Positions 4,157-30,314 of a stretch of 37,402 nucleotides of DNA are shown here, one piece after another. How positions within the stretch are numbered: the first letter of the stretch is position 1; the number at the start of each line of letters is the position of its first letter. The DNA is from a virus: IMG/VR virus record IMGVR_UViG_3300042731_004712, positions 1 to 37,402 of that record; one strand, given 5' to 3'. The notes under the pieces were generated by a model. The model was not told the origin of the DNA. It searched no databases and saw only the letters and a program-made list of their open reading frames with translations. The translations under genes were made by a program, and so were the position numbers.

Positions 4157-5186
4157 CCCCAAGGAAGTCATGATGCTCGCGTTCAACGACGAGCTCGAGA
4201 AGGTGGGAGCCCCTGCTGGGATTCTGCAACGACTGGGTCAGAGAGCGCTGGCTGGGGGTTCTACCGCTGCTCTGGGCGGCACCGCCGGCGCTGGGCTGGG
4301 CGCCCTTGCCGGGGGAGTCAAAGGCTATCGGCAGGCCAAGGAGCAGGGTGGCTCTGGTCTGGCGGGCGCCCTCGCCGGCGGGATGCGCGGTGCGGCCCTG
4401 GGCGGTGGTCTGGGCGCCGCTGCCGGTGGCGCGGGTGGCATGCTGGCCGGCAAGCGAGGCATTCAGCACGCCCGCCAGATGGCCAAGCGAGAGGGCGCTC
4501 TGGGCGCCATCAGTCGCTTCGGCCAGCGTCAGGTCCATGGCGTCACAGGGGCGCTCCCGGGCGGCTTCCGCTCCCGCAGCGCCGCCGTGCGCTCCATAGG
4601 CGCCGGGGGCGCAGACATCAGCAAGCGCCTGTCGGAGACGGGCAAGTCTCTTAGGACGGCCAAGGGGCCGGCCAGGAAGAAGCTGATGGCCCAGCGGCAG
4701 TCCCTGCGCAAGGCTGAACAGCACGCCCGAAAGGCGGAAGAGCTCGGGATGACCAGCGTCCCTGGCTTCTTCCGCACCATGGCTACTGGTAAGGGCATCG
4801 AAGGGATGAAGGCCACCCTCGGGCAGCAGTGGCATGGCTCCCCTTCCGTGGGTGGCAAGCTAATGACGTTCGGCATGCCCGCTGGGTTCATGGCGGCCGA
4901 GGCGGCTCGGAAGAGTCAGCCTGGCGAGTCCAGCCGGGGCGCGCGGGCGGCGCAGAGCTTCGTGGACATGGCCCCCTACACGCTGACCGCCATGCCGCTC
5001 GCCGGCGCCACGTTGCTGGGCACCGGCCTGTCGGCGGGAGGCAAGGCGGTGGGCAGGCTGCTCAGGCGGAAGCGCCCGGCGGAGCCGCCACCATACCCTG
5101 AGGAGGCTGAGGGTCAGGCGGCGCCAGCGGAGCGTATCGAATCACCCTCGGTTCAGGGTAGGCTTCCAGAAGGGTTCGGCGGATGA
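4149..5186 (+). CDS. Glycine-zipper virion protein, possible ejection protein
   Basis: A 345-residue basic, Gly/Ala-rich protein whose start overlaps the end of the previous gene by 8 bases. The N-terminus reads MLAFNDELEKVGAPAG, a short amphipathic helix with the recurrent E-x-E-K-x-x-A signature. Residues about 35-100 are glycine-zipper-like (GAGLGALAGG, GGGLGAAAGGAGG), a pattern common in peptides that insert into or oligomerise in membranes. A lysine/arginine-rich coiled region follows. A second hydrophobic stretch lies near 275-305 (TLTAMPLAGATLLGTGLSAG), then a Pro/Glu-rich tail. It directly precedes the portal with an ATGA overlap. A virion protein that interacts with membrane during DNA entry is plausible but unproven. 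Confidence 0.75.
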   Translation: MSDPKEVMMLAFNDELEKVGAPAGILQRLGQRALAGGSTAALGGTAGAGLGALAGGVKGYRQAKEQGGSGLAGALAGGMRGAALGGGLGAAAGGAGGMLAGKRGIQHARQMAKREGALGAISRFGQRQVHGVTGALPGGFRSRSAAVRSIGAGGADISKRLSETGKSLRTAKGPARKKLMAQRQSLRKAEQHARKAEELGMTSVPGFFRTMATGKGIEGMKATLGQQWHGSPSVGGKLMTFGMPAGFMAAEAARKSQPGESSRGARAAQSFVDMAPYTLTAMPLAGATLLGTGLSAGGKAVGRLLRRKRPAEPPPYPEEAEGQAAPAERIESPSVQGRLPEGFGG

Positions 5187-7252
5187 CGTTTCCAGGCGTC
5201 TGCAGTTTCAACTTCGGCACCTCTCCGATGGGGCCAGGCCGGGGTGGCGCTGGCGTAACGCGTGGGCGCATCCAGGGCAGCATGTTGAACGGGGTGAACT
5301 ACCCCAACCCGTTCTTCGACATTGCACACACGTACTTGCCGACGACGGTCAAGGAGCTGTTCAAGTACTGCCGCTACTACTTCCTCACCAACCCGCTCAT
5401 CAACGCCACGGTCTTCAAACTGGCGGAGTATCCCATCACGGACATCATCGTCGACCACGACAGTGGCGAGGTGAAGCGTCGGTGGGAGGAGTACTACCAT
5501 GACCACCTTCTCTTCCGCTCCTTCCAGGTGGAGGCGGGTCTGGACTATGGCTGCTACGGCAACTGCCCGGTCAGCATCAGTTTCCCGTTCCAGAAGTACA
5601 TCTCCTGCCGTCAGTGTGGGTGGACCGAGCGTGCCAGCAAGGTGCGTCAGTTCTGGACGTTCACCAACTACGGCTTCCGGTTGAACTGCCCGAGCTGCGG
5701 GAACATCGAGGAAGCTGAAGTCAAGGACGTGTACTACAAGAACGCGTCCGGCATCCGTCTCGTCCGGTGGAACGTCGAAGACATCGAAATCACCTACAAC
5801 GACATCACTGGTGAGAGTACCTACTTCTACAACATCCCCGGGCCCCTTCGCAGCGACATCGTCATCGGCAAGAAGGATGTGGTCGAGGGCATCCCTCAAA
5901 TCTTCATCCAGGCCCTACGTCAGCAGAAGGGCATCGTCTTCAGCAAGGACAACTTCTTCCACCTGAAGCGCCCGACGCTGGCGTGGCAGGACCGAGGCTG
6001 GGGCATCCCGCTCATCCTGCCGGTGCTCAAGGACGCGTTCTACCTGCAGCTCATGAAGAAGGCCCAAGAGGCCATCCTGCTCGAGCACATCGTCCCGCTG
6101 CGCGTGCTGTTCCCGCAGGCGGCGAGTGGGACCACCGACCCCTTCAGCACCATCAACCTCACGCAGTGGAAGGAACAGGTCGCTGCGGAGATTGCGCGCT
6201 GGCGCTACGACCACAACTACATCCCCATCATGCCACTGCCACTGGGCAACCAGAGCATCGGTGGTGATGGCAAGGCCCTGCTGCTCTTCCAGGAGATGCA
6301 GATGCACTCCGAGCAGCTCATCATGGGTATGGGCGTGCCGCGCGAGTTCCTCCAGGGCGGGATGAGCTACGCCGGCACCAACGTCTCGATGCGCATGCTC
6401 GAGAATGCGTTCATCGGCTACGTCCTGCGACAGAAGCTCATGGCCAACTGGGTCATGAAGATGATTGCCAACTACCTCGATTGGCCGGAGGCGAACATCC
6501 GCTTCAAGCCTTTCAAGATGGCCGACGACATCCAGCGCAAGGCGTACCTCTTCCAGCTCAACCAGGCACAGAAGATTTCGGACACCACCCTCCTCGCAGA
6601 CGCTGACCTCAGTCAGGAAGACGAGGACGAAATCATGATGCGAGAAATCGACAAGCGGCTGCAGTCGACGCGCAAGCAGCAGCTAGCCATGGCCGAAGTG
6701 CAGGGAGAGGCACAGAAGGTCATGATGAAGTACCAGGCCGAAGCGCAGGCTGGGATGATGTCCGAGCAAGGTGCTCCAGCCCCAGGTGAACCTGGTGGTC
6801 CAGAAGGGGCGATGGACCCTGCCATGGCTGCGCAGATGGGCGCCCAGCCGCCACCCGGCCCGCTCAATGCCGCTGGGGCCATGCCTCCAGCGCAGGGCGG
6901 TGTACCGATGGGTCCGGCGCCACAGCCCGTGGCAGGCATGCCCGGCGGGGGACCCCTGAGCGCGCTCGGCCAGGAGGCACAGAGCCAGCTCGGTATGGGC
7001 AACCGCCTCGAGGATGGTCAGATGGGTGGCGACCCGCTGGCTATGGCCCAGGGCTACGCTCAGCAGATTTCCCAGCTCCCGCCCGACCAGCAGCAGATGG
7101 CGCTGGAGGCACTCGAGGCTCAGTCCCCCGAGCTCGCTCAGCTCGTTGCGCAGATGCTCAGCCACCTACAGCAGGGTGGAGGTGGCCCGCAGGTGGATAT
7201 GCGCCCGCTGCCAGAGCAGCGCCCACCACGTAGAGAGGCAGCGCCGGTATGA
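5183..7252 (+). CDS. Portal protein with zinc-ribbon insertion
   Basis: A 689-residue protein that I assign as the portal, the dodecameric ring through which DNA is pumped and the tail attaches. Typical portal features are the N-terminal helical wing region, an inner section with KRPTLAWQDRGWGIPLILPVLKDAFY, and a C-terminal Gln/Met/Pro-rich tail from about residue 520. Unusually, the wing contains two Cys pairs (C142/C145 in CRQCGW and C169/C172 in CPSCG), which should form a zinc ribbon. The start ATG overlaps the previous stop, and the stop overlaps the next start at 7249. TerL lies far away at 28503, so packaging genes are split in this genome. The portal call rests on overall pattern and length; a homology search would settle it. 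Confidence 0.8.
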   Translation: MTFPGVCSFNFGTSPMGPGRGGAGVTRGRIQGSMLNGVNYPNPFFDIAHTYLPTTVKELFKYCRYYFLTNPLINATVFKLAEYPITDIIVDHDSGEVKRRWEEYYHDHLLFRSFQVEAGLDYGCYGNCPVSISFPFQKYISCRQCGWTERASKVRQFWTFTNYGFRLNCPSCGNIEEAEVKDVYYKNASGIRLVRWNVEDIEITYNDITGESTYFYNIPGPLRSDIVIGKKDVVEGIPQIFIQALRQQKGIVFSKDNFFHLKRPTLAWQDRGWGIPLILPVLKDAFYLQLMKKAQEAILLEHIVPLRVLFPQAASGTTDPFSTINLTQWKEQVAAEIARWRYDHNYIPIMPLPLGNQSIGGDGKALLLFQEMQMHSEQLIMGMGVPREFLQGGMSYAGTNVSMRMLENAFIGYVLRQKLMANWVMKMIANYLDWPEANIRFKPFKMADDIQRKAYLFQLNQAQKISDTTLLADADLSQEDEDEIMMREIDKRLQSTRKQQLAMAEVQGEAQKVMMKYQAEAQAGMMSEQGAPAPGEPGGPEGAMDPAMAAQMGAQPPPGPLNAAGAMPPAQGGVPMGPAPQPVAGMPGGGPLSALGQEAQSQLGMGNRLEDGQMGGDPLAMAQGYAQQISQLPPDQQQMALEALEAQSPELAQLVAQMLSHLQQGGGGPQVDMRPLPEQRPPRREAAPV

Positions 7253-13530: not shown

Positions 13531-14714
13531 TGGATGAGTCCTGCGAACTTGGCGTAGCCACTGCGGCCGAGCTTGAGGATGACCTCTCGCGCCGCCTGCT
13601 TCAAGCTCGGATTGGGGCTGGTGTGCCCCAGGTTCTTGCCGAGCAGCGCGCTCGCTGGCTTCATGGCGACGTCGGCCAGTCCGGCGTCGAACACACGGTC
13701 CACCAGGCCCCAAGCGGGGATGGCATACTGCTGCTGCGCCTGCAGGTCCTTCATGTCGCAGACCCACATCGACATCGAGGTGAGTGCGGCCATGGTGATG
13801 TCCAGACGCTGGGTGTCCGGCATCCAGTTCTTCTGGAGCATGTCCCTCGGGTGAGGTAAGTCGGCCTTGCTGACCCACTCAATCCACTCAGGCAGTACCC
13901 CTTCACCTACGCAGCCAGCGATGAGCTTGTTCTCGATGTCGCCAGGCATCCCCAGGCAGCGCGAAGCAGCGATTCCACGCCCGGCCCAGTGCCACATGCG
14001 TGGGCTACGCCACGGTCCACTAGCGTCTGGGTCATCGGGTTTGGGCTGCTGGTGGAGCTGCGACTGGTTCGATTCCATGAACCCAACCATGAGTCCACGG
14101 AGTTGTGACCAGTGCTCATCCCAGCCTGCCAGAATCTTCTGCTCTGCGTTGACCACGCTCTCGAGGTGGTGCTGAGGTTGCCCAGTGAGCCAATCGGTCC
14201 ACTCACTCACGGTAGGCATGTCGTATGTGACGTGCATCATGCGGTTCGCCAGCGGAGCTTCCAGAGTGAAGCCACCGGCGGCGTACTCGGTGGGGTTCAT
14301 TGCCGTGACGACGCGAACCCTGGGAGGAAGTAGATGGTCACCGACGCGGCGGTCGTTGACCAAGCCCAGCGCCGACGCCTGGACTGCAGGACGTGCGGTG
14401 CTGAGCTCATCAATCGCCAGGACACCCTGACCGAGGTCCCGCAGCTTGTTGGCTTGAGGGAGAATGCACTCGATGATGATGCCATCTGCTGACATGAACG
14501 GCGCGCCGCCGAAGTCCTCCGGCTGCTTCGACGCTGGAAACACAACGAAGAGCGGCAGGCCAACGGCGGCACATGCTTGAGCGATGCGCTCGGACTTCCC
14601 GCCTCCAGAGAGCCCCACGATGTTCAGCGGCAACCCCCAGACACACGCTGCGTCCCTGGGGTCGTGCCTCGGAGTCATGAGGCAGGTGGCGATTACCTGT
14701 TCCAATGTAGCCAT
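13527..14714 (-). CDS. MoxR-family AAA+ ATPase
   Basis: 395 residues. Walker A is GLSGGGKS (K40), Walker B GVLAIDELS (D102, E103), sensor 1 lies in VRVVTAMNP and the arginine-finger region in APLANRMMHV. These are the landmarks of MoxR/RavA-type AAA+ proteins, which form hexamers that act on vWA-domain partners. The expected partner is the DUF2201/vWA protein, whose start overlaps this stop (ATGA). AGGAG lies nine bases before the ATG. The next vWA protein downstream is Ro60, so it is a second candidate partner. The linker before the C-terminal part (about 180-240) is Gln/His-rich. Confidence 0.92.
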   Translation of the reverse strand: MATLEQVIATCLMTPRHDPRDAACVWGLPLNIVGLSGGGKSERIAQACAAVGLPLFVVFPASKQPEDFGGAPFMSADGIIIECILPQANKLRDLGQGVLAIDELSTARPAVQASALGLVNDRRVGDHLLPPRVRVVTAMNPTEYAAGGFTLEAPLANRMMHVTYDMPTVSEWTDWLTGQPQHHLESVVNAEQKILAGWDEHWSQLRGLMVGFMESNQSQLHQQPKPDDPDASGPWRSPRMWHWAGRGIAASRCLGMPGDIENKLIAGCVGEGVLPEWIEWVSKADLPHPRDMLQKNWMPDTQRLDITMAALTSMSMWVCDMKDLQAQQQYAIPAWGLVDRVFDAGLADVAMKPASALLGKNLGHTSPNPSLKQAAREVILKLGRSGYAKFAGLIQ

Positions 14715-16213: not shown

Positions 16214-19200
16214 ATGGCGTACCTGGACCACGACGAGGCGTTTGCGGATTTCAAGGAGCGGGCGCTGGAAGGAATCCGCTCCCACTTCCCGGTCGAGGGA
16301 CGAGAGCAGTCGCTCGTCCTGAAGGACCTGGACGTGCAGATGGAGAAAGCCGACTCCGATGACATCGAGGGTCAGCACAAGGCCAAGGTGGAGGGCGGCA
16401 CTTTCAGCCGACCGGTGTACGCCACCATGGCCCTCAAGGACCACAAGACAGGTAAGGAGACCACTCAGCGGATGAAGGTGGCGGAGCTGCCCGTGCTCAC
16501 CCGTCGCTACAGCTACATCGTGGGCGGTCAGGAATACCAGGCTGACAACCAGTGGCAGCTCAAGCCAGGGGTCTACACCCGACGCCGTCAGAGTGGTGAG
16601 CTCGAGACCAGGTTCAACATCGCCAACCGTCCGGCATTCGACATCACTTTCAATCCTGAGAAGAAGACCTTCCTTATGGAGCGGGGGAAGTCGAAGAGCA
16701 TCCCCGTCTACCCCATCATGAAGGCGATGGGGGTCGACGATGACACGCTCGAGCGGCAATGGGGCAAGGACGTCCTCGAGGCCAACAAGAATGCGCGTGG
16801 CGCCGGTACCGCGCTCGAGCGCTTCTTCAAGGCCGACCGCAAGTTCGCGCCCAAGGACAGGGAGGCGGCCGAGGCGTACGTGCGGGACACCCTGATGGCC
16901 TCGGAGGTCCGACCCGATGCCACCGAGCTCACGCTGGGCAAGAAGTTCGACCGAGTGGAGGGTGACGCCTTCACCAGGGCCACCTCCAAGATGCTCAAGG
17001 TCCAGGCCGGCGCGCCAGAGGACGACCGGGACAACTTGGTGTTCAAGGACCTGCGCAGCGTAGGCGACTACGCTCACGACAAGCTGACCGATTGGAAGAC
17101 GGCCAAGTCCATCCGCAACAAGATGCTGCGGCAAATCAACAACGCCAGTTCACCAAGAGACGTCGTCCGCAGTGAGGTGTTCAACAAGCCCGTGCAGGAC
17201 ACCTTCAGGAAGAACTCGGCGATGCGGGTGGCGGACCAGGTCAATCCTGTAGAGATGATGGCCTCGTCGATGTCCACCACCATCATGGGCCCAGGTGGCA
17301 TTCAGAGCGAGAACGCCATCATGGATGAGGCGAAGCTCATCAACCCCAGCCACTTCGGGTTCGTTGACCCACTGCATACCCCTGAGGGCCAGAAGACTGG
17401 CGTGACGCTTCACTTGCCAATGGGTGTGAAGAAGGTGGGGAAAGAACCACGCATTCCGGTATACAACTTGAAAACTGGCAAGAAGGAGCTCATCGGACCA
17501 GGCACTTTCGTCAAGTCGAACGTGGTTCTGCCAGACCAGGTGAAGTGGGAAGGTGGCAAACCCACAGCGGTAGGCTCAAAGGTGAAGGTCTCCTCGAAGG
17601 CGAACGAGCTCGAGGAGATGAGTATGAAGGACGCCCAGTACGCGATGTTCCACCCATCGCAGGCGTTCAGCATGACGAGCAACCTCATCCCCTTCATGGG
17701 GAACAACTCAGGCAACCGCGCCAGCTACGCGACCCACCACATCGAGCAGGCCATCAGCTTGAAGGACCGTGAAGAGCCACTGGTACAGGTTGGCACCGGC
17801 TCGGGCCGCAAGGGTGTTCGCAGCTTCGAGGAGTTCATCGGTCGACAGTCTGGGCACATGTCGCCGGTGGATGGGACTGTGGAGAAGGTCACCAAGAAGG
17901 GAGTCGTGCTCAAGGACTCCAAGGGCAAGGCTCACACCGTCCAGCTCTACGACAACTTCCCCCTGAACGACGCCAAGTCCGTTCTCAACTCCGAGGCCAC
18001 GGTCAAGCCGGGCCAGAAGGTCAAGGCTGGTCAGCCTGTAGCCGACACCAACTTCACCAAGAAAGGCAAGCTGGCGTTGGGTGCCAACCTCAACGTCGCC
18101 TACATCCCCTGGAAGGGATACAACTTCGAGGATGGCGTCGTCATCAGTGAGAGCGCTGCCAAGAAGTTGCGCAGCGAGCACATGCACAAGCCGAGTGTGA
18201 AGCTCACCGACCAGGACGTCACCGCTCCGAAGAAGTTCCAGGTGCAGCACCCGGAGTCCTACAAGAAGGAGCAGTACGGGAAGCTGGGTGATGATGGTGT
18301 GGTGAAGGTCGGTCAGCATGTGAATCCAGGTGACCCTCTGGTATTGGCGACACGTCCCGTGCAAATCACCGACCGTTCGGGCATCGCTCGCATCCGAAAG
18401 AGCCTCGCTGGGCAGCACAGTGACGCCTCACTCAAGTGGGACAGCGACTACGGTGGAAAGGTCGTAGGCGTCCACAAGAACAAGAAGGGCGAGGTCACCG
18501 TACACGTCAAGACCGAGGAGCAGATGCAGGTCGGCGACAAGCTCACCGGCCGTCATGGCAACAAGGGCATCGTGACCAAGGTCGTACCTGACGAGGAGAT
18601 GCCACGTACCAAGTCCGGCGAGGTCGTGCAGGTGGCCCTCAATCCATCGGGCGTGCCCGGACGTATGAACGTCGGTCAGGTGCTGGAGACAGCACTGGGC
18701 AAGGTGGCCAAGAAGACTGGCAAGCCCATCGTCATCGACAACTTCGAGCACGGTGTGGACCAGGTCGACCGAGTGAAGAAGGAGCTCAAGAGGCACGGCC
18801 TGAGTGACCAAGAGGAGCTCGTAGACCCGAGGACGGGGAAGAGCCTGGGCAAGGCTCTGGTTGGACCCCAGCACATGCTCAAGCTGCAGCACCAGGTGGA
18901 CAAGAAGGTCAGCGTCCGCTCTGGTCTGACGCTCAAGGGCGAGACGCCCGAGACCTACGACGTCAACCTCATGCCCACCAGTGGAGGCAAGAGTGGCGGG
19001 CAGTCGTTCGGCAATCTCGGACTCAACGTACTGCTGGCCCATGGAGCGAAGGCCAACATCCGTGAGGCGCAGACGTGGAAGTCCCAGGGCCCCGACCCTG
19101 CACCCGAGGCGAAGAAGTTCCCCAGTCAGCACCATGAGGTGTGGAACTCCATCCAGCTAGGTGAGCCACTGCCTACTCCCAAGCCCACCTTCGCCTTCCG

Positions 19201-22200
19201 CAAGTTCACCGACATGCTGCGTGCCTCCGGTGTGAATGTGGAGAAGAAGGGCCACCGGATGCAGCTCAGCCCGCTCACGGATGCTGAGGTGATGAAGATG
19301 TCCTCGGGTGAGCTCAAGCAGCCCAGCCGCTTGACCTACTCAAAGGTGGACAAGGAGGGCAACCTCAAGCCTCTACCAGGAGGATTGTTCGACGAGAAGG
19401 TGACTGGTGGTGTGGGCGGCAAGAAGTGGAGTCACATGAAGCTCGCCGAGCCCATGCCGAACCCGATGTTCGAGGGTGCCATCCAGAAGGTGCTCGGCCT
19501 CACTGGTAGGCAGTACAACGACGTGGTCAATGGTGACAAGGCTCTGGACAAGAAGGGCAACGTCGTTGCACTAGGCAAGGGTGATACTGGTGGGGCAGCA
19601 ATCGCCGGCGCGCTGAAAGGGCTCAGCGTCGACAAGGCCCTCGACCAAGCCAAGAAGGACTTGCATGCTGCCAACATCCCCTCAGGGTTTGCTCATGGAG
19701 CCAACACCCAGAAGCTCGACAATGCTCTGAAGCGGGTGAAGTACCTCAGCCTGCTCAAGGAGAAGGGGGTCAGTCCCGACGACGCGTACACCGTCAAGAA
19801 CCTCCCCGTGCTTCCTCCTGCCATGCGCCCACCGAGCATCATGAAGGATGGCAACGTGCGCTGGGAGGACCTCAACGGTCTCTACTCCAACTTCGCTCAG
19901 AACAACGGTCAGCTCAAAGAGCTCAAGGGTAAGGCACACCTCGGTATCGGGGATGCCGACCTGAAGGAGCACCGCCGAGAGATGTACGATGGCCTGAAGG
20001 CCCTGGTTGGTGTCGGGCAGTCCAGCTCGGAGAAGGGTACCAAGAAGGCCAAGGGCGTCATGGAGCTCATCTCCGGCGCGTCACCTAAGGAAGGTTACTT
20101 CCAGAAGACGCTGCTCAGTCGACGTCAGGACATGAGCATGCGCTCGACCATCGTGCCAGAGCCGGGCATGGGGTTGGATGACGTGGGCGTCCCTCAGGAG
20201 AAGGCGCTGAAATTGTTCCGACCGTTCGTGGTCAAGAAGATGACCGAGCTCGGCGTTGCGCCCAGCGCCCTCGAGGCGCAGGAGATGCTGACGAAGAAGG
20301 GTGTGCATCGAGACAAGAACGTCCAGCGTGCGCTCGACATGGTGATGGAGGAACGGCCGCTGCTCATGAAGCGCGACCCAGCTTTGCACAAGCACAGCAT
20401 CCAGGCGTTCAAGGCTCATCGGGTGAAGGGCAAGGCCATCAAGATTCATCCGCTCACCGTCTCTGGGTACAACGCCGACTTCGATGGCGACCAGATGAGC
20501 ATGTACGTGCCGATAAGCGACGAGGCAGTCGAAGAGGCTCGCGGCATGATGCCTTCCAGGAACCTCTTCAATGAGGCGACTGGGCGCGTGGCGTACACCC
20601 CCACGCTCGAGAGCGCGCTCGGTCTCTACAAGATGACTCAGGTGCGTGGTACCGGTAACCGAAGGTTCGGCAGCCCCGCTGATGCACTGAAGGCTGTGCA
20701 GTCGGGCAAGCTCGGCATCGATGAGCTGGCGCAAATCAAGGGGCTAGGCAAGACGACACCGGGTCGAGCTCTGCTGTCGACCGCGCTGCCCAAGCCGATG
20801 CAGCAGCGCGTGTTGACAGACCACAAGTTCCAGCTCAACGGCAGGGGTATCGATGAGCTGTACGGTGAGCTGGCAAGGAAGCACCCTCAGGAGTTTGGGG
20901 ATGCAGCCAACAAGCTCAAGGACTTTGGCTTCGATGCCTCCTATGGACAGATTCGGTTGAAGCACCCAGGCAAGCATGTGGGTCCTGGTGCAATCGACGC
21001 AGCGGAGAATCCCAAGAAGGTTCAAACCCTTCCCGTCGGTACCCACTCGCTCAGCCTCGATGACCTGACACCTGACAGGAAGGTTCGAGACCCCATCATC
21101 CGAGCCACGCAGCGGCGTGTGGACATGATAAACAACTCTGGGTTGACCAAGGCTCAGAAGGAGCAGCGTGCCATTGCCGAGTGGGGTAAGGCCACCACTC
21201 AGATGCAGCAGAAGCACCTGTCTGGTGCCACCAAGAACCCGGACAACCTCTTCAGGATGCACGATGCTGGCATCAAGCCGAAGTGGTCACAGTACCAGCA
21301 GCTCAAGCTGGCACCGATGCTCCTCGAGGATGCTGCTGGGCGAACCATACCGATGCCGGTGACGAAGTCCTACTCCGAAGGACTCGACGTGGCGGGGTAC
21401 TGGACCCAGTCCAGCGGTGCCCGCAAGGGCTCCATCCAGAAGGTGCAGGAGGTTCAGGACCCGGGGTACTTCTCCAAGCAGCTCATCAACACCACGATGA
21501 ACATGGTGGTGAATGGTGACGATTGTGGTACCCAGCGTGGTGTTGGCCTGCCTATAGGCAGCAAGGACGTGCACGACCGCGAGCTCGCGACGGACTTGAA
21601 GGTGCGTGGTCGCACTTTCAAGAAGGGGACCATCATGTCCCCAGACGTGGTCGGTCAGATTCGCCGGCTCGACAAGAACGCGCAGGCTGTCGTGCGCTCG
21701 ACCCTGAAGTGTGAGCATGGAGAGGGTCTCTGCCAGAAGTGCGCTGGGCTCAGTCCTACAGGTCAGTACTACGACAAGGGCACCAACGTCGGCGTGCTCG
21801 GAGCGCAGTCTCTCGGTGAGCGCTCGGTGCAGCTCGCGCTGAAGGCATTCCATTCAGGTGGTGTGAAAGCAGAGGGTGGTGGAACGCTCGGCATGTTCGA
21901 CCGCACCAAGCAGCTCACGCTGCTGCCGAAGCGCATCCCGGACTCTGCCTCTCTAGCCATGAAATCTGGTACCGTCGACAAGGTGGAGACGGGTCGTACT
22001 GGTACCAACATCTTCATCGATGGGATGAAGCACTTCGTTCCAAAGGACCGAACTGGTAGGTCACTTCATACCTCACTACCTAACATGCAGGCGCCTGGTT
22101 GGACTCCGCCGAAGGTGGGTATGAAGGTCGAGGCTGGTCAGCAGCTCAGTGACCCCGCCCGTACCTTCGTGAACCCACACGACTTGTACAAGGCCACCAA

Positions 22201-22675
22201 CAACATGGAGCGCGTGCAGAACTACCTGACGGACGAGCTCCATGGCATCTTCAAGAACGAGGGCGTGCGCCGCCAGCACATCGAGACGGTGGTGAAGGGG
22301 ATGAGCAACCTCACACGTGTACGCTCTCCAGGAGGTGCGTCCGGTATCCTGAAGGGTGAGTACCAGCCCACCTCGAAGGTCCGAGCGGTGAACTCCCAGC
22401 TCGTGAAATCCGGCAAGAAGCCCATCACCCACGCTCCCATCATGAAGGGTATTGATGTGATGCCCCGGGCGATGCAAGAAGACTGGATGGCCAAGCTGAA
22501 CTACAACCGGCTGACCAAGACCCTGACCGACGCTGCGGCAGAGGGCTCGGCGAGCGACCTTCATGGATTGCATCCCATTCCGGGTGCGGCCTACGGTGCG
22601 GAGTTCGGCATGACGAAGAAGCGCCACCACTTCAAGGCGCCTCATCTGAAGGGTCTGCCCGAGTGGGGGTACTAG
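16214..22675 (+). CDS. Single-chain fused beta/beta-prime RNA polymerase
   Basis: A 2153-residue multisubunit-type RNA polymerase in one polypeptide. The beta half has ELPVLTRRYSYIVGG (protrusion), YNFEDGVVISES (638-640), TGRHGNKGIV (779-785), GVPGRMNVGQVLE and the C-terminal GGKSGGQSFGNLGL clamp. The beta-prime half starts near 960-1050 with GGLFDE (1057) and contains MRSTIVPEPGMGLDDVGVP, the catalytic NADFDGDQM (Asp 1422, 1424, 1426), the trigger loop YSEGLDVAGYWTQSSGARKG, and a four-Cys zinc site (C1771, C1833, C1840, C1843). The N-terminal beta-prime zinc finger is missing and the trigger-loop His is Ser1734. No alpha or omega subunit is present. Giant-phage polymerases of this class are usually split into several genes. 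Its place among virion genes suggests packaging in the virion. Confidence 0.95.
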   Translation: MAYLDHDEAFADFKERALEGIRSHFPVEGREQSLVLKDLDVQMEKADSDDIEGQHKAKVEGGTFSRPVYATMALKDHKTGKETTQRMKVAELPVLTRRYSYIVGGQEYQADNQWQLKPGVYTRRRQSGELETRFNIANRPAFDITFNPEKKTFLMERGKSKSIPVYPIMKAMGVDDDTLERQWGKDVLEANKNARGAGTALERFFKADRKFAPKDREAAEAYVRDTLMASEVRPDATELTLGKKFDRVEGDAFTRATSKMLKVQAGAPEDDRDNLVFKDLRSVGDYAHDKLTDWKTAKSIRNKMLRQINNASSPRDVVRSEVFNKPVQDTFRKNSAMRVADQVNPVEMMASSMSTTIMGPGGIQSENAIMDEAKLINPSHFGFVDPLHTPEGQKTGVTLHLPMGVKKVGKEPRIPVYNLKTGKKELIGPGTFVKSNVVLPDQVKWEGGKPTAVGSKVKVSSKANELEEMSMKDAQYAMFHPSQAFSMTSNLIPFMGNNSGNRASYATHHIEQAISLKDREEPLVQVGTGSGRKGVRSFEEFIGRQSGHMSPVDGTVEKVTKKGVVLKDSKGKAHTVQLYDNFPLNDAKSVLNSEATVKPGQKVKAGQPVADTNFTKKGKLALGANLNVAYIPWKGYNFEDGVVISESAAKKLRSEHMHKPSVKLTDQDVTAPKKFQVQHPESYKKEQYGKLGDDGVVKVGQHVNPGDPLVLATRPVQITDRSGIARIRKSLAGQHSDASLKWDSDYGGKVVGVHKNKKGEVTVHVKTEEQMQVGDKLTGRHGNKGIVTKVVPDEEMPRTKSGEVVQVALNPSGVPGRMNVGQVLETALGKVAKKTGKPIVIDNFEHGVDQVDRVKKELKRHGLSDQEELVDPRTGKSLGKALVGPQHMLKLQHQVDKKVSVRSGLTLKGETPETYDVNLMPTSGGKSGGQSFGNLGLNVLLAHGAKANIREAQTWKSQGPDPAPEAKKFPSQHHEVWNSIQLGEPLPTPKPTFAFRKFTDMLRASGVNVEKKGHRMQLSPLTDAEVMKMSSGELKQPSRLTYSKVDKEGNLKPLPGGLFDEKVTGGVGGKKWSHMKLAEPMPNPMFEGAIQKVLGLTGRQYNDVVNGDKALDKKGNVVALGKGDTGGAAIAGALKGLSVDKALDQAKKDLHAANIPSGFAHGANTQKLDNALKRVKYLSLLKEKGVSPDDAYTVKNLPVLPPAMRPPSIMKDGNVRWEDLNGLYSNFAQNNGQLKELKGKAHLGIGDADLKEHRREMYDGLKALVGVGQSSSEKGTKKAKGVMELISGASPKEGYFQKTLLSRRQDMSMRSTIVPEPGMGLDDVGVPQEKALKLFRPFVVKKMTELGVAPSALEAQEMLTKKGVHRDKNVQRALDMVMEERPLLMKRDPALHKHSIQAFKAHRVKGKAIKIHPLTVSGYNADFDGDQMSMYVPISDEAVEEARGMMPSRNLFNEATGRVAYTPTLESALGLYKMTQVRGTGNRRFGSPADALKAVQSGKLGIDELAQIKGLGKTTPGRALLSTALPKPMQQRVLTDHKFQLNGRGIDELYGELARKHPQEFGDAANKLKDFGFDASYGQIRLKHPGKHVGPGAIDAAENPKKVQTLPVGTHSLSLDDLTPDRKVRDPIIRATQRRVDMINNSGLTKAQKEQRAIAEWGKATTQMQQKHLSGATKNPDNLFRMHDAGIKPKWSQYQQLKLAPMLLEDAAGRTIPMPVTKSYSEGLDVAGYWTQSSGARKGSIQKVQEVQDPGYFSKQLINTTMNMVVNGDDCGTQRGVGLPIGSKDVHDRELATDLKVRGRTFKKGTIMSPDVVGQIRRLDKNAQAVVRSTLKCEHGEGLCQKCAGLSPTGQYYDKGTNVGVLGAQSLGERSVQLALKAFHSGGVKAEGGGTLGMFDRTKQLTLLPKRIPDSASLAMKSGTVDKVETGRTGTNIFIDGMKHFVPKDRTGRSLHTSLPNMQAPGWTPPKVGMKVEAGQQLSDPARTFVNPHDLYKATNNMERVQNYLTDELHGIFKNEGVRRQHIETVVKGMSNLTRVRSPGGASGILKGEYQPTSKVRAVNSQLVKSGKKPITHAPIMKGIDVMPRAMQEDWMAKLNYNRLTKTLTDAAAEGSASDLHGLHPIPGAAYGAEFGMTKKRHHFKAPHLKGLPEWGY

Positions 22676-23938
22676 ATGCCCGCACTCAAGGGCATGTACA
22701 CCGACTACTTCAACCCACTGGCGTGGAGTAGCTTCGCTCGTTCATCGTGGACTCAGCCTGAGGGTGCAGTCGCCGCCTACGTTCACGAGGCGCGTATCTT
22801 CAACGTCAACATGACCAACTGGACGGTGGACGTCGCCACCATCTTCGACCAGAAGGTCATGCTCGACCTGCAGGTTGCGAGTCCCTACATGAACGCCAAC
22901 CAGGGTGAGGGTCTCTACGTTGTACCGGAGGTAGGAGCGAAGTGTCTCATCTGCATTCCTTCGGACGGGCCGCCGCCGTTTGTCCTGGCCTTCATCATGC
23001 CTATGGTGACGATTCCCGATACCTCAAGCGAGGAGGCCCCTGCGGGAACCTCACCGGATGCGGCGGGCAATACGGAGAGTACCAGCGACTACACGTACGC
23101 AGGTGGCAGGACTCGTGGGAAGCCGGGCGACATCGTAGCCCGAACGAGAGATGGGAACTTCATGATTTTGCATCGTGGAGGAGTGGCCCAATTTGGCGCG
23201 ACCCCACTCGCACAACGGATTTGCATCCCGCTGCAGAACCTCGTCACCGACATCAGCCAGAAGTACAACCACTTCAACTCGGGCGGCTCCATCAACTGGG
23301 GTGTGCAGGACCGGGGTAACGACGACCCGGATACGGAATGGCGTCACACCGTGCGCGTGTTCGCCAACGATGAGTATGCAGACATGCGTTTCGCCATGGG
23401 TCGAGTACGTTCTCCAGTACCGGAGCCCACTGGTGATGCTGGTGAGGATTCAAACAACAACCAGCTCGAGATTGGGACTGACGAGGACACAGTCTTCGAG
23501 ATGGTGCTGGCCCGCAACGGGTTTGAGACGGATGCGGGTGAATTCAAGGCAGACGCTGAGGATGTGAAGCTGCGCATCTTCGTAGACCGTGCAGGCAACA
23601 TGATGGGGCGCTGGGAAGGCTCAGTGAACCTGCGGGTGAAGAAGAAGCTCCGGCTCACCGTGGACGACAACATCGAAATCTTCTGCAAGAAGAACGTGTC
23701 CGTCGAAGCCGAGGGCTCGGTGAAGCTCATCGGCAAGAGTGGTGCGGAGCTGGGCACGGCCGGAGGTGGCCTGGTGCTCAATGGTGGCGGAAAGCCGGTG
23801 GCATCGGTAGGCTCGACGGTACGCGTGGCCATCACGATTCCAATTGCCATCACCACACCGCAGGGACCAGGTACCATCCTCTCCGGTCAGTTCCTCGAAG
23901 GGGTCATCTCTACAGGTAACCCCACCATCCTCGTCTGA
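22676..23938 (+). CDS. Baseplate central spike (gp5/gpV-like)
   Basis: 420 residues. Residues about 35-105 fit the OB-fold domain of phage spike proteins (EARIFNVNMTNWTVDVA..., a bulk-solvent loop, then LYVVPEVGAKCLICIPSDGPPPFVLAFI), where the sequence V-P-E-V-G-x-x-C is typical. Residues about 320-365 (RLTVDDNIEIFCKKNVSVEA, SVKLIGKSGAELG) have the alternating pattern of the triple-stranded beta-helix that forms the membrane-piercing needle. The C-terminus is a glycine-rich end without a clear metal-binding HxH tip. Such spikes occur in contractile-tailed phages and type VI secretion. The ATG follows the polymerase stop directly. Confidence 0.85.
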   Translation: MPALKGMYTDYFNPLAWSSFARSSWTQPEGAVAAYVHEARIFNVNMTNWTVDVATIFDQKVMLDLQVASPYMNANQGEGLYVVPEVGAKCLICIPSDGPPPFVLAFIMPMVTIPDTSSEEAPAGTSPDAAGNTESTSDYTYAGGRTRGKPGDIVARTRDGNFMILHRGGVAQFGATPLAQRICIPLQNLVTDISQKYNHFNSGGSINWGVQDRGNDDPDTEWRHTVRVFANDEYADMRFAMGRVRSPVPEPTGDAGEDSNNNQLEIGTDEDTVFEMVLARNGFETDAGEFKADAEDVKLRIFVDRAGNMMGRWEGSVNLRVKKKLRLTVDDNIEIFCKKNVSVEAEGSVKLIGKSGAELGTAGGGLVLNGGGKPVASVGSTVRVAITIPIAITTPQGPGTILSGQFLEGVISTGNPTILV

Positions 23939-28285: not shown

Positions 28286-28513
28286 GTGCCATCCACACTC
28301 TCTCAGATACCCCTTAGTGTAAGCACTGAAGTGTTCACGGAGCTCTTTTGCGACGGGTTCTACAAGTTGCAGCGCTATCCAGTCACCATCAGGGTCCTCC
28401 GCAAAAGCGACTTGCCCGCTGAGGTTTGGTACGGCAGCGAACAGAGATTCACCGAGCCATTGAACTGCTTGACCCAGGTCGTCTGTGAACCTCGGAGGGT
28501 ACATGGCGGCTGA
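28286..28513 (+). CDS. Possible small gene before TerL (uncertain strand)
   Basis: The 254 bases between the 157-residue gene and TerL contain two candidate frames. A plus-strand GTG frame (75 residues, with TEVFTELFCDGFYKLQRYPV) ends by overlapping the TerL start, in keeping with the coupling used elsewhere in this operon. An opposing minus-strand frame starting at 28504 also looks protein-like in its first 80 residues (AFAEDPDGDWIALQLVEPVA) but then runs into the gene at 27775-28248. Neither has a good ribosome site. I favour the plus strand weakly. Confidence 0.3.
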   Translation: MPSTLSQIPLSVSTEVFTELFCDGFYKLQRYPVTIRVLRKSDLPAEVWYGSEQRFTEPLNCLTQVVCEPRRVHGG

Positions 28514-30314
28514 ACCAGTCTACGTCGAACCCGAGGACGAGTGGGACGATACTTGGTACGACGACCGCATTTGGATACCTGAGCCGGAGCTCGTCGAAGA
28601 CCCCATAGTCCTGCAGAACGCTAGGAAGAAGCAGGAGAAGATACCCGCTCTGACTCCAGCGGACTTCACCTCCTACGCGTTCTGGATGCCACGAGCGGAG
28701 AAGTTCATCGATGAAGATGGCAACGAAGACGAGCGCGTCAAGATAGACAAGTTCAGCTTCGAGGGTCGCCGGCACATGGTGCGTTGCTACAACACGCCGG
28801 CGAAGCGGCTGCTGTTGTTCTGTGGACGCCAGGTCGAGAAGAGCACTCTGCTGGGCAACATCATCATCTGCTACATGAGCCTCATCCCGACGTACAAGGC
28901 TCTGTATGTCAGTCCATCAGCTACGCAGACGAAGACCTTCAGCAACGACCGTGTGAAGGAACCCATCGAGACCAGCCCCGTGCTGCGTCGGTTCACCACG
29001 ACGATGCTGTCGCAGAACATCTTCGAGAAGCAGTTCATCAACCGCTCGAAGATTACGCTGCGCTACGCCTACCTGAATGCTGACCGCACGCGCGGCATCC
29101 CAGCCTACATGCTGGCCATCGATGAGTTCCAGGATGTGCTGCAGGACAACGTCCCGGTCATCGAGCAGTGTCTCAGCCACGCTCCCAAGACGTTGAAGCG
29201 CCAGGTGTACTCGGGGACACCGAAGAGTCTGGACAATCACCTCGAGTACTACCGCGCGAACATGAGCACCCAGAACGAGTGGGTGGTCCCTTGTGATGCT
29301 CATGGAGGAGAAGCAGGTAGGTTCTGGAACGTCCTTGGTGAGAAGAACATCGGCAAGCGTGGGCTCATCTGTGAGAAGTGCAAGCGGCTCATCAACCCGA
29401 TGCACCCAGACGCGACGTGGATGAGGATGGTGAAGGAGGCTCCTTGGGAGAGCTACCGCATCCCTCAGCTCATGGTGCCGTGGGTCGACTGGCAGAACGA
29501 CATCCTCCACAACTACGAGCACTACCCCCGAGAGAAGTTCTACAACGAGTGCCTCGGGCTCTCCTACGACTCCGGTCTTCGTCCACTCACCACCCGCCAA
29601 CTGAGAGACGCCTGCAAGGGCGAGCTGAAGATGGCGGACATGGAGAACTACCGCAAGCTCAGCTATGCGCAGGGCGTGTATGCCGGTATCGACTGGGGCA
29701 CAGGAGAGCACAGCTACACCGTCATCTTCCTCGGGATGTACATCGACATGAAGTTCCGGGTCATCTTCGCCCACCGGTTCGTGGGTGAGGAGGTGGACCC
29801 CGACGTGCAAATCGAGCGCATCATCGAGCTCATCCGGTTCTTCAACGTGAAGTGGATTGGCTCCGACTACGGCGGAGGATTTAGCAGCAACTACAAGTTG
29901 GTGAAGACGTTCGGCGCTCAGCGCGTGCGCAAGTTCCAGTACTTGGCTCGCTCTGCTCGAGGCAAGGTGGTGTGGGATGGGAAGCTGCAGCGCTACCTAG
30001 TGAGCCGCACTGAGGTAATGAGCGACATCTTCAACGCCATCAAGCGTGGCAAGTGTGAGTTCCCACGGTGGCAGGACTTCCGTGACCCCTTCGGTCAGGA
30101 CATGCTCAACATCTTCAGTGAGTACAACGAGAACCTGAAGATGATTCAGTACAAGCACGGCGTCGACAAGCCGGACGACTCCTTCCACGCGTTCTTGTAC
30201 TGCTGGCTCGCATCGATGTTCGACCACCCGCGCCCGGACATCATCGCGCCGGACACCGAGGACGCCCACGGCTTCCGCAAGCAGAACTGGCCGGGGCCAA
30301 TCGACCAGGGCTAG
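28503..30314 (+). CDS. terL: Terminase large subunit (TerL)
   Basis: 603 residues from the ATG at 28503, which follows GGAGGG. The ATPase half has a Walker A of unusual form, CGRQVEKST (108-115, Glu112 where Gly is common), and Walker B MLAIDEFQD (D207, E208). The RNase H-like nuclease half has its three acidic sites: GIDWGTGEH (D397), GSDYGGG (D455) and KPDDSFHA (D558/D559). Between the halves a CDAHGG...CEKC segment may bind zinc. Packaging motors of this type pump DNA through the portal and cut concatemers. The TAG stop overlaps the stop of the convergent HTH gene (CTAG). Confidence 0.95.
   Translation: MAAEPVYVEPEDEWDDTWYDDRIWIPEPELVEDPIVLQNARKKQEKIPALTPADFTSYAFWMPRAEKFIDEDGNEDERVKIDKFSFEGRRHMVRCYNTPAKRLLLFCGRQVEKSTLLGNIIICYMSLIPTYKALYVSPSATQTKTFSNDRVKEPIETSPVLRRFTTTMLSQNIFEKQFINRSKITLRYAYLNADRTRGIPAYMLAIDEFQDVLQDNVPVIEQCLSHAPKTLKRQVYSGTPKSLDNHLEYYRANMSTQNEWVVPCDAHGGEAGRFWNVLGEKNIGKRGLICEKCKRLINPMHPDATWMRMVKEAPWESYRIPQLMVPWVDWQNDILHNYEHYPREKFYNECLGLSYDSGLRPLTTRQLRDACKGELKMADMENYRKLSYAQGVYAGIDWGTGEHSYTVIFLGMYIDMKFRVIFAHRFVGEEVDPDVQIERIIELIRFFNVKWIGSDYGGGFSSNYKLVKTFGAQRVRKFQYLARSARGKVVWDGKLQRYLVSRTEVMSDIFNAIKRGKCEFPRWQDFRDPFGQDMLNIFSEYNENLKMIQYKHGVDKPDDSFHAFLYCWLASMFDHPRPDIIAPDTEDAHGFRKQNWPGPIDQG

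Follow-up and report, generated by a model that had tools for sequence, protein, structure and literature searches.

In bacteria, a dimer of alpha subunits serves as the platform for RNA polymerase assembly. Fused RpoB-RpoC chains are found in Helicobacter pylori, whose cellular enzyme has its own alpha, omega and sigma70, and also in Wolbachia. To our knowledge, the phage enzymes that lack alpha are highly diverged or split. Single-chain two-barrel phage polymerases, fusion of cellular beta and beta-prime, and a phage clade with a cellular-type RNA polymerase (PMC7481178) are already known. The nearest known systems are Gp206, Gp216 and Gp10 of phage Arash (PMC10585845) and the polymerases of Vibrio phages D69, D148 and D181. 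Here, we describe the polymerase gene (16214-22675, plus strand) of the virus in IMG/VR record IMGVR_UViG_3300042731_004712, whose full stretch of 37,402 nucleotides is referred to below as the window. Judged by its sequence, the gene encodes a cellular-type two-barrel RNA polymerase core with a complete catalytic set in one polypeptide. Our best reading, to which we assign a probability of roughly two in three, is a virion holoenzyme made of this one core chain and a phage-encoded divergent sigma.

Beta and beta-prime in one chain

The open reading frame (ORF) begins with ATG and runs uninterrupted through 2153 codons, with no internal stops. Its Pfam domains follow one another in the order Rpb2_3 (residues 339-401), Rpb2_6 (552-903), Rpb1_1 (a match under its curated Pfam cut-off), Rpb1_2 (1303-1446) and Rpb1_5 (1723-2045). 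Residues 1124-2135 are matched by PDB chains of bacterial beta-prime (E 4e-104), and in Foldseek the two AlphaFold models, made from overlapping parts of the chain, match bacterial beta and beta-prime, the match to bacterial beta reaching E 2e-58. Because the second AlphaFold2 model has a predicted template modelling score (pTM) of 0.41 and a Foldseek TM score of ~0.27, only local features of the models are used. The record itself is a 37.4-kb piece only; the same virus is also present on a 145.8-kb contig, L004 (the same as G001), which carries the polymerase gene intact and is 99.996% identical to the window in DNA over 26.5 kb. A third contig, L005, covers polymerase residues 705-2153 at 99.9%.

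The window protein retrieved 35 IMG/VR loci, of which 32 include the junction between the two halves and three (L025, L028, L029) are too truncated to judge. Beta and beta-prime share one ORF across the junction in all 32, and these loci form 24 clusters at 90% identity; fusion is the rule in the clade of the window enzyme. In a control set of 81 bacterial rpoBC loci, 70 carry both subunits as separate ORFs of at least 900 aa, 11 could not be judged, and none has one ORF for both. Some bacterial loci were first marked as fused where tblastn had read through a stop, and the ORF-based count contains no bacterial fusion. In the isolates Arash and D69, beta is fused to the N-terminal half of beta-prime and the C-terminal half (beta'C) is a separate gene; the split maps to approximately E. 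coli beta-prime 551-554, directly after the DPBB.

The bacterial termini align directly with the fused chain. The C-terminal end of Salmonella beta, SLGINIELEDE, aligns with ASGVNVEKK in the window protein, and the Salmonella beta-prime start FDAIKIALASPDMI, after approximately 16 residues, aligns with HRMQLSPLTDAEV; the window chain therefore has no added linker. Model 1 places strands at residues 1008-1012 and 1015-1019, with a low predicted local distance difference test score (pLDDT) at the junction, and model 2 places them at 1007-1012 and 1015-1020, with moderate to good pLDDT (blocks of 86, 67 and 91). The last beta strand is thus predicted to run into the first beta-prime strand as a hairpin, and the bacterial equivalents of both strands would also pair, between separate chains. 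Residues K1011, G1013 and P1020, which span the junction, are invariant.

Catalytic residues were mapped onto Salmonella RpoB and RpoC and are given in E. coli numbering, with Carin-5, YerA41, RHph_Y65 and Va2 left out of the mapping. All 16 fused proteins and all 21 bacteria share beta K1065, K1073, R1106 and H1237 and beta-prime R425, D460, D462, D464 and H936. All 16 fused proteins thereby carry the features of a cellular-type two-barrel enzyme, namely the DxDxD of DPBB-A, the active-site lysines of DPBB-B and the trigger-loop histidine. The first-pass annotation had placed beta and beta-prime, with all catalytic landmarks, in a single 2153-residue chain, and the intact ORF, the identity of these residues in 16 of 16 proteins and the fusion at 32 of 32 loci confirm it.

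The fused enzymes also differ from their bacterial counterparts. Compared with Brevibacillus, they lack part of the beta lobe region (287-374) and short stretches of beta-prime. None of the fused proteins mapped retains the cysteines of zinc finger 1, and all keep those of zinc site 2. Within the rifampicin pocket, the H526 position is never His and the S531 position is always Thr (16/16 fused proteins), which predicts resistance of the fused polymerases to rifampicin.

Partner subunits and probable virion packaging

Searches for alpha (PF01000) and omega (PF01192) found neither in any of 12 records, while the same searches matched 13 and 14 of 14 control genomes, respectively. The lack of both subunits, first noted for the window, is thereby extended to 12 larger records. 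The putative sigma partner sits outside the window, on the virus's longer contig, where a homologue (E 3.6e-15) of Arash Gp10, a virion protein annotated as sigma, lies at G001 4785-5615 on the minus strand. In most records the sigma escaped the Pfam sigma models, and it was found with the Arash virion sigma as the query. A profile of three such sigmas matches in 9 of 16 records, including 7 of the 8 records of at least 170 kb, and a profile of nine matches the solved SigA over regions 2-4 (E 1.8e-15). The divergent sigma may partner the fused core. No second polymerase of the window type was found in the 12 records searched with the window protein, a search that very divergent ones could escape; within any one record, the matches fall in a single gene, except that in Arash and D69 they fall in the two parts of a split gene. 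A search for T7-type polymerases gave no matches, controls included, and is uninformative.

The polymerase gene is kept between a portal gene and a baseplate spike-like gene, which supports a virion-gene setting. The portal lies upstream in 29 of 35 loci, and in the other six the DNA before the match is no longer than 3.3 kb; the spike-like gene follows the polymerase in 32 of 35, and the remaining three have no more than 1.3 kb after the match. The place among virion genes that was first read from the window, with the spike-like gene directly downstream, therefore holds in its relatives. In Arash virions, mass spectrometry recorded 3516 spectra for Gp206 (beta plus the N-terminal half of beta-prime, beta'N), the highest of all proteins, 1210 for Gp216 (beta'C) and 467 for Gp10 (sigma) (PMC10585845). 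Per residue, the counts are 2.31, 2.00 and 2.00, ranks 4, 5 and 6 among the 39 proteins with lengths, of 116 reported for the particle. Gp206 is 32% identical to the window chain. Particles of YerA41, a more distant relative, also hold RNA polymerase subunits and a sigma. Of the initial proposal of a virion polymerase injected with the DNA, the virion part has become likely through proteomics of Arash rather than of the window phage, and the injection part stays conjectural.

A proposed mechanism and its alternatives

According to the reading of a virion holoenzyme, the last strand of beta and the first of beta-prime, separate chain ends in bacteria, would be joined by a tight turn, so that the halves would fold as one unit and would need no alpha dimer for assembly. 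The core would be packaged in the virion along with a divergent sigma that recognises phage promoters; core and sigma would reach the cell together with the DNA and there transcribe the early genes, and the phage would later make more enzyme for the next virions. The phage may in this way start transcribing its own DNA without the host polymerase. Within this scheme, we infer sigma binding to the core, alpha-independence, injection and early promoter use. The more exacting claim, a packaged holoenzyme of just two polypeptides in which a cellular-type beta/beta-prime chain works without alpha or omega alongside a divergent virion sigma, stands at about even odds. If true, this would make it the simplest RNA polymerase of cellular type that depends on sigma, and early transcription of the phage would be independent of host polymerase and of rifampicin.

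Several observations weigh against the virion holoenzyme. The profile search found no Arash-type sigma in 7 of 16 records, namely G003 (170.8 kb), G010 (150.2 kb), G008 (143.0 kb), G009 (133.5 kb), G011 (79.1 kb), G012 (62.7 kb) and G014 (53.6 kb), all of which may be fragments. One of these, G009, lacks the Arash-type sigma and instead carries a canonical sigma70 ORF with regions 2 and 4 (G009:C1:104954-105475, 206 aa). A count of promoter motifs across 39 upstream regions gave no convincing shared motif, and host alpha or omega could still be recruited. Packaging in the window phage is argued by orthology with Arash, and the form detected in virions is not the full single chain, beta'C being separate in Arash and D69. 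Spectral counts saturate, and equal counts are no proof of a complex. Finally, the 116 proteins listed for Arash particles include reductases, ligases and a primase, and carry-over from the lysate is a possibility that the authors themselves raise (PMC10585845).

Of the alternatives, the one that survives best is a hybrid holoenzyme, in which the chain needs host alpha and/or omega, or a host sigma. It would explain why no phage alpha or omega was found, and it has a precedent in H. pylori, where beta and beta-prime are fused (PMC1750930) in an otherwise bacterial enzyme. Set against this are the phage's own sigma and the non-virion RNA polymerase (nvRNAP) of AR9, whose core is catalytically active without alpha (reviewed in PMC7598289), and we regard the hybrid as unlikely, if still a serious competitor. 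Somewhat less probable again is that the single chain serves middle or late genes as a non-virion polymerase, made after infection, and that the signal in Arash particles is lysate carry-over. In its favour, those particles held many metabolic enzymes as well, and carry-over was considered by the Arash authors. However, the spectra of Gp206 top those of all proteins, the length-corrected counts exceed those of the portal and the major tail protein, and YerA41 particles hold their polymerase too. The absence of a second polymerase of this type from the 12 records and the conserved place of the gene between portal and spike also speak against it.

The first-pass annotation had placed the enzyme in a class of jumbo-phage polymerases, and a related reading takes it for a virion (vRNAP) or non-virion enzyme of the phiKZ/AR9 type that had stayed unsplit. 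The lack of alpha and omega is common to both, and the split site of Arash and D69 after the DPBB is as in jumbo phages (PMC7598289). However, AR9 subunits match over just 12% of the query (E 7e-8), with still less for other jumbo phages, whereas the closest PDB matches are bacterial beta-prime chains (down to E 4e-104) and bacterial subunits align over most of the chain. The phiKZ class is described as having no recognisable initiation-factor homologue (PMC7598289), while the window virus has a sigma. We therefore rejected this class on sequence, given the short and weak matches, and on architecture, given one ORF at 32 of 32 judged loci; it retains very little probability. The label "jumbo" also lapses: contigs of this family reach 184.9 kb and Arash 180.8 kb, the genomes are ~180 kb, and none over the 200-kb jumbo limit is shown.

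Quick maximum-likelihood trees of each half, built without bootstrap, join 16 fused proteins, D69 and Arash in one group and 21 bacteria in a second (SH-aLRT, the Shimodaira-Hasegawa-like approximate likelihood ratio test, 99-100), with YerA41 and Carin-5 on a separate long branch. Of the 32 fused proteins, 16 were used, leaving aside those with inteins, truncated ones and most near-duplicates, together with 21 of the 70 bacteria; archaea, eukaryotes, the AR9 and phiKZ subunits, D148 and D181 were not included. The root is open without archaea, and the beta tree carries a long-branch warning where the Carin-5/YerA41 branch meets the bacteria. The phylogeny of each half that had been proposed was thus carried out against bacteria, giving separate groups, while AR9 and phiKZ were compared by sequence match only. 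On this sequence evidence, the window polymerase is not of the phiKZ/AR9 class and forms a clade with Arash and D69, apart from the 21 sampled bacteria, in which fusion is the rule.

A false joining of two neighbouring genes, through assembly or a frameshift, is rejected as having a negligible chance, since the fusion recurs at all 32 judged loci in 24 clusters, the junction residues K1011, G1013 and P1020 are invariant, two independently sequenced isolates also read through the junction, and no point in favour of an artefact was found.

Inteins and genomic context

The long gaps in L015, L017, L022 and other loci were rejected as gene splits, the gaps being in-frame inteins. The fused polymerase of L015 (L015:9971-19747, plus strand; ORF of 3259 aa) holds three in-frame inteins, of which one directly follows the catalytic DFDGD and another sits in the trigger loop, past the counterpart of His936. 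Further in-frame inserts lie near residue 957 in L022, L023, L024 and L032 and after DFDGD in L017, L028, L029 and L030; those of L017 and L022 are read as inteins. LAGLIDADG was found in the L015 and L017 inserts, with a weak intein-splicing match in L017. In Vibrio phage D148 (L153:956-6470), a homing endonuclease gene lies between two ORFs of a broken beta. Up to three inteins at catalytic sites, together with the endonuclease inside beta of D148, suggest how such genes may come to be split.

Elsewhere in the window, a Ro60/TROVE-vWA gene (9943-11790, minus strand) adjoins two RNAs (9430-9595 and 9663-9763, both minus strand) that score as YrlA-like and tRNA-like (49 bits for tRNA; 32.6 bits for YrlA, below its cut-off), and together they probably make up a phage Ro60-Y RNA module. 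Two tandem tRNA genes at 8695-8848 on the plus strand are both called Phe, with the unusual anticodon AAA. A vWA/metallopeptidase-like gene and an AAA gene (12091-13878 and 13527-14714, both minus strand) form a pair that is kept in several close relatives. The features that bear on the polymerase and its neighbourhood are collected in Table 1.

Table 1. Positions in the window of the polymerase gene, its parts and neighbouring virion-related genes
Feature	Position	Strand	Basis
Portal protein, conserved upstream neighbour	5183..7252	+	blastp to Arash gp204 portal, E 2.5e-87
Single-chain RNA polymerase core, beta then beta-prime, 2153 aa	16214..22675	+	ORF, Pfam, PDB matches, family loci
Beta half, residues 1-1013: protrusion, fork, DPBB-B with active-site K776, K784, R817, H893	16214..19252	+	Pfam Rpb2_3/Rpb2_6, residue mapping, Foldseek
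Rifampicin-pocket equivalent, residues 338-358, contacts not conserved (H526 to S, S531 to T)	17225..17287	+	residue mapping
Linkerless beta/beta-prime junction, residues 1007-1020, predicted beta-hairpin	19232..19273	+	alignment of bacterial termini, two models
Beta-prime half, residues 1014-2153	19253..22672	+	Pfam, PDB match, residue mapping, Foldseek
Site of missing bacterial zinc finger 1 (E. coli beta-prime ~68-99, four Cys)	19418..19423	+	alignment, residue mapping
Catalytic NADFDGD motif, residues 1420-1426; intein insertion point in L015 and L017	20471..20491	+	sequence, residue mapping
Zinc site 2, four Cys (1771, 1833, 1840, 1843), invariant 16/16	21524..21742	+	residue mapping
Trigger-loop His, H1880 (E. 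coli H936)	21851..21853	+	residue mapping
Baseplate spike/hub-like gene, directly downstream	22676..23938	+	weak Phage_base_V match, E 0.0011, below cut-off
Terminase large subunit (PF05876)	28485..30314	+	Pfam, Arash comparison
Relative of Arash gp222, a virion protein of Arash (Table 2 of PMC10585845)	33104..34840	+	comparison with Arash

Comparison with known systems

The literature searched contains no report of a linkerless fusion together with a virion sigma, and the known enzymes each share part of this arrangement. The phiKZ and AR9 polymerases are likewise phage enzymes of multisubunit type without alpha or omega, and a virion form exists; they differ in being far more divergent, in their four or five genes and in the lack of a recognisable initiation-factor homologue (PMC7598289). 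These phages have both a virion and a non-virion polymerase, whereas a single polymerase of the window type is found in each of the 12 records. Virion-borne, single-chain two-barrel polymerases are also known in crAss-like phage phi14:2 (gp66; PMC10770324, PMC7481178) and in P23-45 (gp96; PMC10770324). However, gp66 is very divergent with QDE-1-type features, while the window chain most resembles cellular beta and beta-prime (crAss gp66 is absent from the 60 listed out of 224 matches), and gp96 is fused to the tape measure, lacks the clamp and belongs to another clade. The P23-45 paper also mentions multisubunit derivatives with fused DPBB domains, which the available sections leave unnamed (PMC10770324).

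RpoB-RpoC of H. pylori shares the joining of beta and beta-prime in one chain, and an engineered E. coli beta/beta-prime fusion assembles into functional polymerase (PMC1750930). The mReC, a group of RNA polymerase-encoding Caudovirales (Weinheimer and Aylward 2020, PMC7481178), resemble the window virus in bacterial-type beta/beta-prime, the NADFDGD motif, a deep branch apart from bacteria and in being tailed phages; the sections available mention no fusion in mReC. As described there, mReC has capsids of PF07068 and terminases of PF03237, families that are customary for the group rather than a strict definition of it, whereas the window virus has a PF05876 terminase and no capsid hit; Pfam gives nothing for the capsid at L142:2475-3599 (minus strand), even at E up to 1. 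The comparison with mReC is by description only, and membership is not claimed: the branch position fits, and the terminase and capsid families differ.

The closest likeness is to Arash and D69, which fall in the same clade in both trees and share a beta fused to beta'N, an upstream portal and a homologous sigma, with the Arash proteins present in virions; they differ in their separate beta'C gene and in sequence (~32% identity). With its cellular-type chain, linkerless halves and sigma partner, the window enzyme offers a compact setting in which to ask why alpha and omega are needed. It also connects tailed phages of a little-known clade, of which isolates such as Arash are available, with an early-transcription strategy that can be tested. 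The Arash paper labels Gp206 "subunit beta", with no remark on a fusion in the sections available (PMC10585845); the comparison made here corrects that annotation from "beta" to beta plus beta'N.

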